Assembly: GCF_022482365.1 (NCBI RefSeq)
Contig: NZ_JAKVPE010000001.1
Coordinates: 1,178,001-1,242,000, forward strand
Source: Limosilactobacillus sp.
GTDB lineage: Bacteria > Bacillota > Bacilli > Lactobacillales > Lactobacillaceae
Reading direction: 5' to 3'
Length of the DNA stretch: 64,000 nt
The position numbers were made by a program, and so were the translations under genes. Under the pieces are notes generated by a model, which was given only the letters and a program-made list of their open reading frames with translations, was not told where the DNA came from and made no database searches. This document shows, one piece after another, positions 38,763 to 54,077 of this stretch (position 1 is the first letter of the stretch; the number at the start of each line of letters is the position of its first letter).

Positions 38763-38789
38763 AGATTAAATTTTTCTAATGAAAAGAAT

Positions 38790-38818
38790 TGACAGCTTGC
38801 CAGACCTTGGGTATACTA
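38790..38818 (+). promoter_or_regulatory. Consensus sigma-A promoter of the trp leader
   Basis: TTGACA (38790-38795), 17-bp spacer, TATACT (38813-38818). Near-perfect vegetative promoter, 32 bp before the leader ATG. Confidence 0.85.
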
Positions 38819-38850
38819 AGAGCAATTAATAACCAAGGAGCAAGCAACAA

Positions 38851-38901
38851 TGAAGAAGTTTCAATCTCACAACGTGAATATTCGTTGGCAAAGCCGGTAG
38901 A
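38851..38901 (+). CDS. Leader peptide of the trpXYZ operon
   Basis: A 16-residue reading frame, MKKFQSHNVNIRWQSR, with AAGGAG 9 nt upstream and a consensus promoter before that. It has one Trp codon (TGG 38887-38889), three codons before the stop region. The AGCCGG overlapping its end can pair with CCGGCT at about 38948-38953, so ribosome position at TGG would decide which downstream structure forms. This is inferred as ribosome-mediated control of the tryptophan transporter; no similar peptide was compared. Confidence 0.65.
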
Positions 38902-39052
38902 CGGGTTGTTTCGGTATCGATGCAACCTGACAACAGATTGCATCTGTGCCGGCTGAGATTGTTATTTCATTCAGTCCGCATGGATCCACATGCGGGCTTT
39001 TTAATTTGCTTAACCAGCGAGGGTCCTGCATGCGGACGCTCGCTTTTTATTT
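38892..39052 (+). promoter_or_regulatory. Attenuation region with tandem terminators before trpX
   Basis: Alternative helices are possible: AGCCGG with CCGGCT, GGTTG with CAACC, GATGCAA with TTGCATC. Two terminator hairpins follow: CCGCATG-GATCCA-CATGCGG plus TTTTT (38976-39002), and AGCGAG...CTCGCT plus TTTTTATTTT (39016-39052). Both precede trpX, so transcription must pass them. The remainder of this 311-bp gap is the promoter and leader peptide. Confidence 0.7.
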
Positions 39053-39073
39053 TAGAAAGGTGTGAATCATCAC

Positions 39074-40063
39074 ATGAAGCGCATGTATAGCCTCATTGCA
39101 ATTATTCTTGTTTTCCTGGGCTTCGCCTTCTTCAAGGAAAACGGTGGTTTGGTCAAGCAGCAAACGCCTAAGATCGGGGTCCTGACCCTGATGCACCACC
39201 CGGCCCTCGACCAGATCTACAAGGGCTTTGTCGATGAGTTGGCCAAGGAAGGCTACCACAACGACAAGAACATCAAGATCGAGTACCAAAACGCCAACGG
39301 GGACCAGAGCAACCTGAAGACGATGGCCTCCAAGCTGGTCAACGACAACTGTACCGTCATCTACAGCATCACCACCCCGGCGGCCCAGGCGGTTGCCAAC
39401 TCTACCACCAAGACGCCAATTATCCTCGGTGCGGTCACTGATCCAAAGGGTGCCGGCTTGGTTAAGGACAACAAGCATCCCGGCGGCAACATCACCGGGG
39501 TCTCCGATCAGGCCCCAATCAAGGAGCAGATTAACCTGATCAAGGAATTCATGCCAAACATGAAGACGCTCGGGGTCATCTACACCTCTAGCGATTCCTC
39601 AGCCGTCGCCGGCTACCACCAGATCGTCCGTGAATGTAAGAAGCAAGGAATCACGCTGAAGGCCTACTCAATCGCCAACAGCAACGACCTCAACCAGGTT
39701 TCCGAGCAGATGCTCAGCCAGGTCGACGCCGTGATCGTCCCGACCGACAACACCATCGCCGGGGCCATGCAGACCCTGGTCAAGAACGCCAACGCGGCGA
39801 AGAAGCCGGTCTTCCCGGCTGCCGGAACCATGGTCAAGCAGGGCGGGGTTGCAACCTACAGCGTTAACCAGTACGACCTCGGTGTCCGGGGCGCCAAGAT
39901 GACCGTCAAAGTTCTCAAGGGCAAGAAGCCGGCAGAAACACCGATCCAGTACGTTCGCCACGGTGAACCGGTCCTGAACCTCAAGCAAGCTCGCAAGCTC
40001 GGCCTGACCGTTCCAAAGCATTTCCAAAAAGAAGCACAGCAAGAAGGAGTGATCTACAAATGA
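39074..40063 (+). CDS. trpX: Tryptophan ABC transporter substrate-binding protein
   Basis: 329 residues of the ABC-type sugar/amino-acid-like binding family that includes TrpX. A short N-terminal hydrophobic segment (MYSLIAIILVFLGFAFF) anchors or exports it, followed by KIGVLTLMHHPALDQIYKGF and GAVTDPKGAGLV motifs typical of this group. ATG 39074 is preferred to the GTG at 39062, which is too close to AAAGGTG. Its stop overlaps trpY by 4 bp. Specificity for tryptophan is inferred from family layout and the Trp-containing leader. Confidence 0.87.
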   Translation: MKRMYSLIAIILVFLGFAFFKENGGLVKQQTPKIGVLTLMHHPALDQIYKGFVDELAKEGYHNDKNIKIEYQNANGDQSNLKTMASKLVNDNCTVIYSITTPAAQAVANSTTKTPIILGAVTDPKGAGLVKDNKHPGGNITGVSDQAPIKEQINLIKEFMPNMKTLGVIYTSSDSSAVAGYHQIVRECKKQGITLKAYSIANSNDLNQVSEQMLSQVDAVIVPTDNTIAGAMQTLVKNANAAKKPVFPAAGTMVKQGGVATYSVNQYDLGVRGAKMTVKVLKGKKPAETPIQYVRHGEPVLNLKQARKLGLTVPKHFQKEAQQEGVIYK

Positions 40064-40956
40064 ATCTTATCGTTTCCTCAATCGGGCAAGGGCTGCTCTG
40101 GGCACTCCTCGGGCTCGGCCTCTACCTAACCTTTAGAATCCTCGACTTCTGCGACATGACCGTTGAAGGGACCTTCCCGCTGGGCGCGGCCACCGCGGTT
40201 ACCGCCATCACCCACGGGGTCAGCCCGCTTCTGGCCACCCTGCTAGCGGTCGGGACCGGGATGATCGCCGGCCTGATCACCGGCCTGCTCTATACCAAGG
40301 GCAAGATCCCCAGCCTGCTCGCCGGGATCCTGACAATGACCGCCATCTACTCGGTCAATCTGCGAATCATGGGCAAGTCCAACATCTCGCTGCTGGGCAA
40401 GCCGACCCTGTTCAACGGGGCCCTCACGAACTTGCCCCAGTACTTCGATAGCGTCACGCTGGGATTGATCGTGATCGCCATCGTCACCATCCTGATGGTT
40501 GCCTTCCTCGCAACCGACTACGGCCAGGCCTTCATCGCCACCGGGGACAACCCGACGATGGCCAAGGCATTCGGGATCCACACCGACAAGATGGTGATCG
40601 TCGGTCTGATGGTTTCCAACGGGATGGTCGGCCTCTGTGGCGCCCTGATCGCCCAGAACAACGGGTACGCCGACGTCAACATGGGGATTGGGACCATCGT
40701 TATTGCCCTGGCCTCAATCATCATCGGTGAGGTGGCCTTCGGTGAACTGACTCTCAACCAACGGCTGGTTGCGGTCACCCTGGGTAGTATCATCTACCGG
40801 CTGATCCTGCTGGCGGTTCTGCAGCTTGGTTTTTCCGCCAACGACCTCAACCTCATTTCGTCGATCGTCCTCGCCATCAGCATGATGATTCCGCAATTCG
40901 AACAGCACCTCAACATTAAGAAGCCAATTCTCAGGGGGGTTCAGCCACATGAGTAA
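40060..40956 (+). CDS. trpY: Tryptophan ABC transporter permease
   Basis: 298 residues with about eight membrane segments, of the BPD_transp_2 family (branched-chain amino acid-like permeases). Typical segment DFCDMTVEGTFPLGAA near the N-terminus and TDYGQAFIATGDNPTMAKAFGI in the cytoplasmic loop. It starts inside the trpX stop (ATGA) and overlaps trpZ by 8 bp, so all three are translated together. Confidence 0.88.
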   Translation: MNLIVSSIGQGLLWALLGLGLYLTFRILDFCDMTVEGTFPLGAATAVTAITHGVSPLLATLLAVGTGMIAGLITGLLYTKGKIPSLLAGILTMTAIYSVNLRIMGKSNISLLGKPTLFNGALTNLPQYFDSVTLGLIVIAIVTILMVAFLATDYGQAFIATGDNPTMAKAFGIHTDKMVIVGLMVSNGMVGLCGALIAQNNGYADVNMGIGTIVIALASIIIGEVAFGELTLNQRLVAVTLGSIIYRLILLAVLQLGFSANDLNLISSIVLAISMMIPQFEQHLNIKKPILRGVQPHE

Positions 40957-41713
40957 GCCAATTTTAGAGTTAAAAAACGTTCAGACCGTCGTTAACAAGG
41001 GCACTTCCAACGAGACGATGATTTTGAAGGGAATCAACCTGGAGATCAACGACGGCGACTTCATCACCATCGTCGGGACGAACGGGGCCGGGAAATCCAC
41101 CCTCTTCAACGTCATCGGTGGCAACCTGCGCGCCGACAACGGCCAGATCCTGCACAACGGCAAGGACATCACCTCTTCCAGCGAGGAGGACCGGACCGCC
41201 TTCCTCTCGCGGGTCTTCCAGGATCCTAAACTGGGGACGGCACCGCGGATGACGGTCGCCGAAAACATGCTGCTGGCCACCAAGCGGGGCGAGCGGCGCC
41301 ACCTGATTCCACGAAAGCTCAAGCAGAACATGGCCCGCTTCACCAAGCTGGCCGCCACGATGAATAACGGCCTGGAAGACCGGATGACCACGGCGACCGG
41401 GGCCCTCTCCGGTGGTCAGCGTCAGGCCCTGAGCTTCTTGATGGCCACCCTCAAGCGGCCGGATATCCTGCTACTGGACGAACACACCGCCGCCCTGGAC
41501 CCTCACACCAGTTTGAACCTTCTCCACGCTACGAACGAGCGGATCACCCACGACCACCTGACGGCCCTGATGATCACCCACCACCTGGAGGATGCTCTGA
41601 CCTACGGCAACCGGCTGATCGTGCTAAAGGACGGTCAGATCAAGGCCGACTTCAGCGGTCCGGAAAAGGAACAACTGACCGTGGACAAGCTGTATCAGTA
41701 TTTTGAAGATTAA
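40949..41713 (+). CDS. trpZ: Tryptophan ABC transporter ATPase
   Basis: 254 residues. Walker A GTNGAGKST, Q-loop VFQDPKLGT, signature LSGGQRQAL, Walker B LLLDEHTAALD and switch His in ITHHLEDAL. The DEHTAALDP wording is usual for this transporter group. Last gene of trpXYZ, followed by a terminator. Confidence 0.9.
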   Translation: MSKPILELKNVQTVVNKGTSNETMILKGINLEINDGDFITIVGTNGAGKSTLFNVIGGNLRADNGQILHNGKDITSSSEEDRTAFLSRVFQDPKLGTAPRMTVAENMLLATKRGERRHLIPRKLKQNMARFTKLAATMNNGLEDRMTTATGALSGGQRQALSFLMATLKRPDILLLDEHTAALDPHTSLNLLHATNERITHDHLTALMITHHLEDALTYGNRLIVLKDGQIKADFSGPEKEQLTVDKLYQYFED

Positions 41714-52086: not shown

Positions 52087-52301
52087 TTATTTTCTTCCTT
52101 TCTTTCTACCATATATAAGATTAATAACTTTTAATTATCATACCACGTTATCTCATCAGGCGTTAATATTCTTTCGGCCAGATCAATGAACGTTAGCCAC
52201 ACCCTCATCAACTTATTTCATCAAATCCCGAACGAAACCGTTTTCTATCCTTGCATCCCCCAACTTTTCGTGTTAGGATAAGGCCACTTCAAATTAATCG
52301 A

Positions 52302-52370
52302 TAGCCTATATAATGCCGTAATATGGACGGTAGTTCCTACCCAAAGCCGTAAACTTTGGACTATAAGCGA
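52302..52370 (+). promoter_or_regulatory. Purine riboswitch aptamer (guanine/xanthine class)
   Basis: Core order: TATAAT junction, P2 GCCGT/ACGGT, AATATGG, loop TTCCTAC, P3 CCAAAG/CTTTGG, CCGTAAA loop, and the J3/1 junction ACTA followed by TAAGC. The C in ACTA is the position that selects guanine-type ligands (U in adenine riboswitches). It precedes a purine permease. The 215 bp between it and pepD show no further gene. Confidence 0.88.
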
Positions 52371-52378
52371 ATTGAACG

Positions 52379-52418
52379 AAAGCTCTTTTTGCTTTTTCCA
52401 GCAAGGAGAGCTTTTTTA
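52379..52418 (+). terminator. Riboswitch expression-platform terminator
   Basis: AAAGCTCT pairs with AGAGCTTT enclosing TTGC/GCAA, then TTTTTT, between the aptamer and the permease start. Ligand binding would favour this terminator. Confidence 0.8.
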
Positions 52419-53846: not shown

Positions 53847-53849
53847 AAT

Positions 53850-54077
53850 TGCAACAATTATCGTTTCAGTAGCTGCTCTGTTGGGTGTCAGAGAGCCGGT
53901 GGTGATGTGCGAACCGGTCAGGCAGGGTGAGTGAATTATCGCGAGGATTTTGATTGTCCGGCCATGATCAGTGCCGTTACCACCTGATAAGAGTGCGCGC
54001 CGAATCGCAGTGCGTAAGTGGGTGGTACCGCGGTAATTATCGTCCCGTTGATTTATTTCAACGGGGCGTTTTTTATT
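53850..54077 (+). promoter_or_regulatory. T-box leader controlling nhaC (Tyr or Ile specifier)
   Basis: Antiterminator T-box GGGTGGTACCGCG is at 54020-54032, followed by CGTCCCGTTG/CAACGGGGCG and a T-run. Stem I contains AGAGAGCCGGTGGTGATGTG and GAACCGGT, with CTGCTCTG pairing to CAGGCAG below. The specifier loop has AGTA on the 5' side and GTGAATTATCG on the 3' side, which reads TAT (Tyr) or ATC (Ile), depending on one base of register. Family reports of Tyr T-boxes before NhaC-type genes, as I recall them, favour Tyr. Confidence 0.82.

Follow-up and report, generated by a model that had tools for sequence, protein, structure and literature searches.

The leader of the E. coli trp operon contains a leader ORF with Trp codon, alternating helices and a terminator, and classic attenuation as such is old knowledge. 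The same components are found in front of trpXYZ in a Limosilactobacillus sp. Unlike in the E. coli leader, the ORF at this locus has one Trp codon, its 3' end is itself a helix strand, and an extra hairpin follows the stop codon. The Rfam model for the E. coli leader (RF00513, Trp_leader) scores 14.1 bits here (E 2.8) and does not reach its cut-off of 41. A T-box 5' of Streptococcus suis trpX likewise senses tRNA-Trp charging and serves an equal kind of transporter (PMC9382623), but differs from the locus in binding the tRNA directly and in having no leader ORF.

Two further Rfam families are relevant to the region. RF04312, the trpB ncRNA motif, comes from a 2024 survey, where the available text ranks it as a strong riboswitch candidate of unknown ligand, counts over 900 representatives, names Fusobacteria for it, and keeps the classic attenuator as a possibility (PMC11109978). 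RF02863 (sRNA_2410) is filed as an sRNA, a putative one of E. faecium identified by RNA-seq, with two transcripts on the Northern blot in the accessible part of that report (PMC5593968); it differs from the locus in that the sensor codons of loci matching it are Tyr and Phe. Another riboswitch candidate, the ilvB-II uORF of Corynebacterium, proved to be a leader ORF attenuator, as the available parts of two accounts describe it (PMC10272879; PMC11109978), although its codons are for branched-chain amino acids and it belongs to another phylum. For RF04312 and RF02863 no account of a leader peptide was found in the open-access literature, most subscription papers lying outside the scope of the search. 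The answer offered here is that the trpB motif would sense tRNA charging through a translated ORF that was left out of the Rfam model.

Leader region of trpXYZ

All coordinates refer to the window, the whole 64,000 nt stretch of Limosilactobacillus sp. DNA that was analysed (NZ_JAKVPE010000001.1, positions 1,178,001-1,242,000, forward strand). The features are listed in Table 1.

Table 1. The trpXYZ leader and its genes, in window coordinates
Feature	Position	Strand	Basis or remark
Promoter, sigma-70-type, TTGACA-17-TATACT	38789-38817	+	consensus scan, 11/12 consensus bases
Leader Shine-Dalgarno AAGGAG	38835-38840	+	sequence
Leader ORF, MKKFQSHNVNIRWQSR, 16 codons, ATG 38850, stop TAG 38898-38900	38850-38900	+	ORF, relatives
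Sensor codon UGG, sole Trp of leader, four codons ahead of stop	38886-38888	+	
Segment 1: leader ORF end, 5' side of helix P0, outside Rfam model	38892-38899	+	
Segment 2: directly past stop codon, 5' side of hairpin hp1	38902-38909	+	
Segment 3, left shoulder	38915-38929	+	partners: segment 2 (hp1, 38922-38929) or right shoulder (P1, 38915-38925)
Segment 4, right shoulder	38938-38956	+	partners: segment 1 (P0, 38947-38954), segment 3 (P1, 38938-38948) or segment 5 (antiterminator, 38943-38956)
Segment 5: terminator 1 5' arm, also antiterminator partner	38971-38984	+	
Segment 6: 3' arm of terminator 1	38989-38998	+	
Terminator 1, stem 38973-38998, T run to 39002	38973-39002	+	consensus scan, covariation
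Terminator 2, stem 39016-39044, then T run	39016-39049	+	fold; pairing analysis with terminator 1
RF04312 trpB motif, sub-threshold match, 40.2 bits (gathering 59)	38913-39009	+	relaxed-threshold Rfam search
trpX, tryptophan ABC transporter substrate-binding protein, Ala250/Gln266 pocket (Trp type)	39074-40063	+	
trpY, permease (PF02653)	40060-40956	+	
trpZ, ABC-type ATPase	40949-41713	+	many ABC ATPase families matched, all under cut-off

The promoter, the AAGGAG and the leader with a single TGG upstream of trpXYZ, all claimed in a preliminary description of this DNA, are borne out by their coordinates. Its two tandem terminators also stand, with adjusted limits: the first, given as 38976-39002, begins at 38973, and the second, given as 39016-39052, is a stem followed by a T run. 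The mutually exclusive helices that it proposed are present here and covary in relatives.

The product of trpX passes the NCBIfam TrpX model NF041285 with 468.5 bits (cut-off 390). The closest named relative found is Limosilactobacillus kribbianus, in which TrpX is 98% identical and the leader differs by one residue. An amino acid attenuator carries in its leader ORF codons for the amino acid of the downstream genes, and the Trp codon in front of these predicted tryptophan transporter genes appears to be such a case.

The RNA from 38824 to 39073 folds with -92.5 kcal/mol, against -62.8 +/- 4.4 kcal/mol for dinucleotide shuffles (z -6.7). The consensus terminator scan reports terminator 1, and terminator 2 is absent from its list. 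Terminator-like sites are not in excess in the 6-kb region, with 6 found and 6.5 expected from shuffles, so that the evidence for the terminators is their position and conservation rather than the scan.

The 5' half of terminator 2 is similar to the 5' arm of terminator 1, both in the window (39016-39044) and in Lactobacillaceae loci. Pairing of the terminator 1 3' arm with terminator 2 reaches -14.5 kcal/mol at the locus (z -2.3). In the family of the locus the mean z is -2.5 among the 46 loci with a second terminator, 29 of them being below -2. This pairing is weak in families f3 (7/28) and f5 (3/12), and does not stand out in f2 (0/13), f7 (0/9) and f9 (1/20). Terminator 2 may be read through when the freed 3' arm of terminator 1 pairs with its 5' half.

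A T-box or a TRAP-type regulator could be imagined to govern trpXYZ instead. T-boxes are predicted at trpX of S. suis and S. pneumoniae, with no hit for S. pyogenes in the accessible part of that study (PMC9382623), and a trpE-like gene of the same Limosilactobacillus genome sits behind one. The T-box half of this proposal is contradicted by the trpX leader, which has no RF00230 match at gathering or at E up to 10, against 30 matches elsewhere in the genome, 11 of them over the cut-off. With the search covering T-boxes, control of trpXYZ by either type of regulator is judged scarcely conceivable.

The T-box match near the trpE-like gene (L226) is below the cut-off. The ORF that it precedes has trpE as its best family, at 417.6 bits where the cut-off of 517.7 is not reached; it was read to near the end of the locus, and trpA follows about 6 kb downstream in the same orientation. 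A UGG in this T-box could be its specifier, by our reading. One genome would then have two devices, a leader attenuator and a T-box, for one signal. Within the window there are also T-box matches, both below the cut-off, 5' of a branched-chain amino acid carrier (PF05525; 32617-32856, +, 90.3 bits) and 5' of a membrane-protein ORF (53847-54050, +, 67.8 bits). A purine riboswitch above gathering (52286-52383, +) precedes a membrane ORF that reads as nucleobase permease-like.

Conservation of the leader ORF

The locus aligns with RF04312 over the full model, including P1, the right shoulder and the terminator. At 40.2 bits it does not reach the gathering score of 59, and it is treated as a homologue rather than filed as a member. 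Two congeners with the identical leader type before trpX (L048, L049) are above the cut-off. The Rfam model begins 3' of the leader ORF and is without P0. Matches to it are present in 42 of 50 genomes of the genus and in 160 of 295 genomes of the order, representing 49 of 74 genera. In the phylum 5 of 299 genomes have a match, of which two are inside the order and three look like chance.

A total of 144 matches, all distinct, were read: 64 loci and 80 stretches spread over genera among the matches listed. An ORF led by a Shine-Dalgarno sequence, with Trp within its last eight codons and a stop in the expected place, is found in 129 of these; among 2880 dinucleotide shuffles, 116 have one. If the Trp must also be followed by Q, H, N, R or K, 123 of the 144 matches and 33 of the 2880 shuffles qualify. 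These counts are independent of the RF04312 search, because the Rfam model starts downstream of the ORF. The gene behind the leader is of the TrpX family for 123 of the Trp-led loci and trpB for 5. The leader is also found in 28 of 30 trpX loci fetched from the family, the two where it was not found being L023 (G074) and L028 (G101), and in all seven trpX loci on named contigs. Most Lactobacillaceae leaders end in WQSR or a variant of it and have one Trp codon; in most loci of families f3, f4, f7 and f9 there are two, in W-x-x-W-R-R or similar. The conserved leaders and their RNA indicate that the device is widespread in many lactic acid bacteria.

Fifteen of the 144 are without such a leader. 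Six of these are chance-like matches with no Trp leader in the searched place: a second match in the window's own genome (G000:C1:706052, 40.2 bits), three outside the order (L097, L099, L100), and L171 and L181. Another three have Tyr and Phe codons. In five (L082, L105, L122, L126, L136) the Trp is more distant from the stop or the Shine-Dalgarno is weak. The last (L050) keeps the stretch from UGG to stop, with no start led by a Shine-Dalgarno found, and is read as a decayed leader copy. L050 is also one of three leader copies whose next gene is not trpX; that of L040 reads as reverse-transcriptase-like, and L042 and L050 are followed by another ORF. Two further RF04312-type leaders (L059, L060) have two Trp codons (WQAWYTFDRI) and lie 5' of a membrane protein. 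In L060 this protein has no Pfam match over the cut-off, the best being PF03390 at 22.1 bits; it is possibly a Trp-related transporter of a new kind.

Competing helices and ribosome position

Five helices contend for the strands of the leader RNA: P0, hp1, P1, the antiterminator and terminator 1, of which P0 and hp1 are compatible. P0, in which the end of the leader ORF pairs with the right shoulder, is outside the Rfam model. Covariation was assessed in 44 Lactobacillaceae sequences out of 54 prepared rows; of the ten omitted, six were cut within the terminator, three were too divergent and one was a near copy of the locus. Paired cells make up 93.8% for P0, 88.1% for hp1, 90.0% for P1, 87.2% for the antiterminator (95.5% in its outer two pairs) and 97.0% for terminator 1. 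A gapped column of the alignment holds an additional pair of hp1, for which the share is just 35.1%. Every one of the five helices has pairs with both sides changed, and in P0 they are 5 of the 8. The observed covariation score was reached by none of 500 shuffles for any of the three structures tested, although the shuffles ignore relatedness. Sliding the helix partners reduces the score by a factor of 2.5 or more. For the antiterminator structure, 25 of 500 shuffles came up to the observed number of pair types.

An alignment-free test compared the duplex energy of each strand with its own partner and with partners from other families. It could be applied to 132 of the 144 loci, one of the others being without a terminator and the rest without a placed leader. 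P0 is better with its own shoulder than with that of another family in 119 of the 132, and the antiterminator is better with its cognate partner in 109, counting a few loci in which the terminator is misplaced (e.g. L047, L093, L092). The residues after the Trp (SR, SQNR, SH, NWRR etc.) vary by family together with the paired RNA strand. This speaks for RNA structure, rather than an arrest peptide, as what determines them.

It is very probable, from these sequence features, that trpXYZ is controlled by ribosome-mediated transcription attenuation that senses tRNA-Trp charging at one UGG codon. A likely form of the switch, less certain than attenuation by the leader as such, has six segments. 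With no ribosome, or after its release, segment 1 would pair with 4 and segment 2 with 3, so that 5 is free for 6 and the genes are off. A ribosome waiting at UGG, when charged tRNA-Trp is short, would cover only segment 1. Segments 2 and 3 would then pair, leaving 4 free to form the antiterminator with 5, and the genes would be on. A ribosome at the stop codon would cover segments 1 and 2, so that 3 and 4 pair as the P1 of Rfam, 5 pairs with 6, and the genes are again off. Most likely, then, the tryptophan importer is switched on by a stalled ribosome. In the cell this would involve translation of the leader, stalling, termination and a response to tryptophan.

An attenuator also has a competing antiterminator and terminator that are able to depend on ribosome position. 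This is indicated here by covariation and by folding in the three ribosome states, the latter failing at the locus when upstream RNA is included. The ribosome footprint used in folding is general knowledge. Whole-leader folding with blocked footprints does not cleanly separate the states, which are separated when only the RNA downstream is folded. With the ribosome stalled at Trp, the free RNA of the locus ending before the terminator 3' arm folds into hp1 and the antiterminator; P1 is formed at intermediate lengths (38953-38973), and hp1 with the antiterminator wins at 38985. With the ribosome at the stop codon the downstream RNA folds as P1, and with no ribosome P0 and hp1 fold.

Among 130 distinct loci, the antiterminator is on, by its five expected pairs, in 120 with the ribosome stalled, in 60 with no ribosome and in 65 with the ribosome at the stop. 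Nearly half of the loci thus have the antiterminator even without a ribosome, and in 14 of the 130 another state beats the stalled one. The effect is weaker in the Tyr/Phe set (23 stalled, 17 none, 17 stop), of which 35 of 110 loci were usable, 72 not being placed by patterns and 3, by subtraction, being duplicates.

If upstream RNA is included, equilibrium folding with the ribosome at Trp yields P1 rather than the antiterminator at the locus, and only 69 of 132 loci show the antiterminator clearly above the ribosome-free state. The fully made terminator 1 wins in every state, and the switch must therefore act during transcription. In view of this weaker picture the broad mechanism is held firmly and the six-segment logic less so.

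Leaders with Tyr and Phe codons and their transporters

The three RF04312 matches with Tyr and Phe codons instead of Trp are L179, located 5' of aroE, and L133 and L138, located 5' of TrpX-like genes. A covariance model built from these three, with the ORF end included, has matches in 233 of 395 genomes of the order and in 57 of 80 genera. With strict filters it has no match in the window's own genome at E 0.001. The 120 matches read (30, 80 and 10) are the best-scoring part of the list plus one further genus, and the three founding loci recur among them. Each of the 120 has an open frame that stops where expected and contains at least four Tyr/Phe within its final twelve codons. These codons are not independent of the search, because the model contains the ORF end; the start, the Shine-Dalgarno and the downstream genes are. 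In 113 of 120 (30/30, 76/80 and 7/10) the frame has a start preceded by a Shine-Dalgarno of at least four bases. The gene behind the leader is aroE in 54, a TrpX-like binding protein in 54 and DAHP synthase in 8. The remainder are one each of a 3-dehydroquinate-synthase-like gene, chorismate synthase, a polar amino acid binding protein and a contig end.

RF02863 matches 9 of the 15 Tyr/Phe-type loci tested above its cut-off. Termination in the leader would fit the two transcript lengths of this RNA. The sensor codons on the kept scaffold are Trp, Tyr, Phe, or Tyr with Phe. Quite probably, RF04312 and RF02863 are one homologous attenuator family of the Lactobacillales, in which sensor codons swap on a kept scaffold and predict the substrate of the transporter, and in which a Q-L-N stretch may aid stalling. 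The RF02863 'sRNA' is reassigned on this reading. The leaders would form a natural codon-swap set on one scaffold, much as T-boxes swap their specifiers, except that here the ribosome is the reader.

Direct binding of tryptophan or a related amino acid by the RNA, as a riboswitch, was the first proposal for the trpB motif. It has in its favour the strong RNA structure and the publication of the class as a strong riboswitch candidate, although the available text of the same survey has its authors keeping a classic attenuator open (PMC11109978). An ORF with a Shine-Dalgarno and cognate codons upstream of most matches, the ORF end being itself part of the helices, and the replacement of Trp codons by Tyr/Phe where the target genes differ make a riboswitch highly improbable.

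An arrest peptide of the TnaC type that senses free tryptophan, or a nascent chain that is needed to hold the ribosome, is very unlikely, if somewhat less so. Q-L-N lies three to five codons before the sensor codon in both types of leader, with varied Leu codons, which points in this direction. Counting at most three leaders per genus, 31 of 77 Trp leaders and 57 of 71 Tyr/Phe leaders have L-N shortly before the sensor, where the other frames have it in 0 to 2; Gln, with the codon CAA, follows the Trp in 67 of 77. The residues after Trp nevertheless differ between families along with the paired shoulder, and Trp is swapped for Tyr or Phe. Induction by free Trp would, moreover, turn an importer on in excess. 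The Q-L-N stretch and the near-invariant CAA after UGG are unexplained by the pairing model, and a contribution of the nascent chain to stalling is possible from the former.

Attenuation at one Trp codon, as the preliminary description had it, is thus supported by the conserved codon, helices and genes and by the lack of a T-box at trpXYZ. A stalling motif in RWQSR, also suggested there, is not needed, as the residues after Trp change from family to family in step with the strand to which their codons pair.

The leader codons can be compared with the binding proteins behind them. A quick maximum-likelihood tree with no bootstrap was made of 117 proteins, no more than three from a genus for each leader type; in it 76 Trp-led and 41 Tyr/Phe-led proteins are parted by one branch with an SH-aLRT of 100. 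In crystals, SP1069 (3LFT), CD0873 (6HNI) and VC_1101 (3LKV) hold Trp, Tyr and Phe, respectively. The accessible part of that structural work ascribes the choice to two residues, which are Ala and Gln in the Trp binder, Glu and Tyr in the Tyr binder, and Ala and Tyr in the Phe binder (PMC6816091). These were located by alignment to the solved proteins. At the Gln position the Trp-led proteins all have Gln (122 of 122, a 123rd being truncated there), and all 54 that are Tyr/Phe-led have Tyr (52) or Phe (2). Both kinds of protein are present in 20 genera. The other position is less tidy, with Val 85, Ala 28, Thr 6 and Ser 3 behind Trp leaders and Ser 39, Ala 7, Asp 4, Thr 3 and Phe 1 behind Tyr/Phe leaders; Asp is found only with leaders richer in Tyr. 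Leader labels for this count came from the search and from reading, the automatic label having misread five Trp loci (L090, L094, L102, L105, L130) because another frame is richer in Tyr/Phe. Three Tyr/Phe-led paralogues scanned with the TrpX model NF041285 score 316-336 bits, below the cut-off of 390. By the tree and the Gln position, leader codons track the transporter, and they would predict, in a testable way, the substrates of many transporters whose annotation is just TrpX-like.

Genome G107 has two tandem TrpX-like genes, one with an all-Tyr leader, YYYGYYG (L293), and one with an all-Phe leader, FFAGFFFG (L294). Their pocket pairs are Asp and Tyr for L293 and Ala and Tyr for L294, compared with Ala and Gln in the window TrpX. 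By sequence similarity both are nearer 6HNI than 3LFT, and the window TrpX is nearer 3LFT than 6HNI. Against a simple reading, the Phe binder 3LKV is, among the three solved proteins, the one that the Phe-led L294 resembles least. The polar amino acid binding protein found once behind a Tyr/Phe leader (L304, G808) belongs to PF00497.
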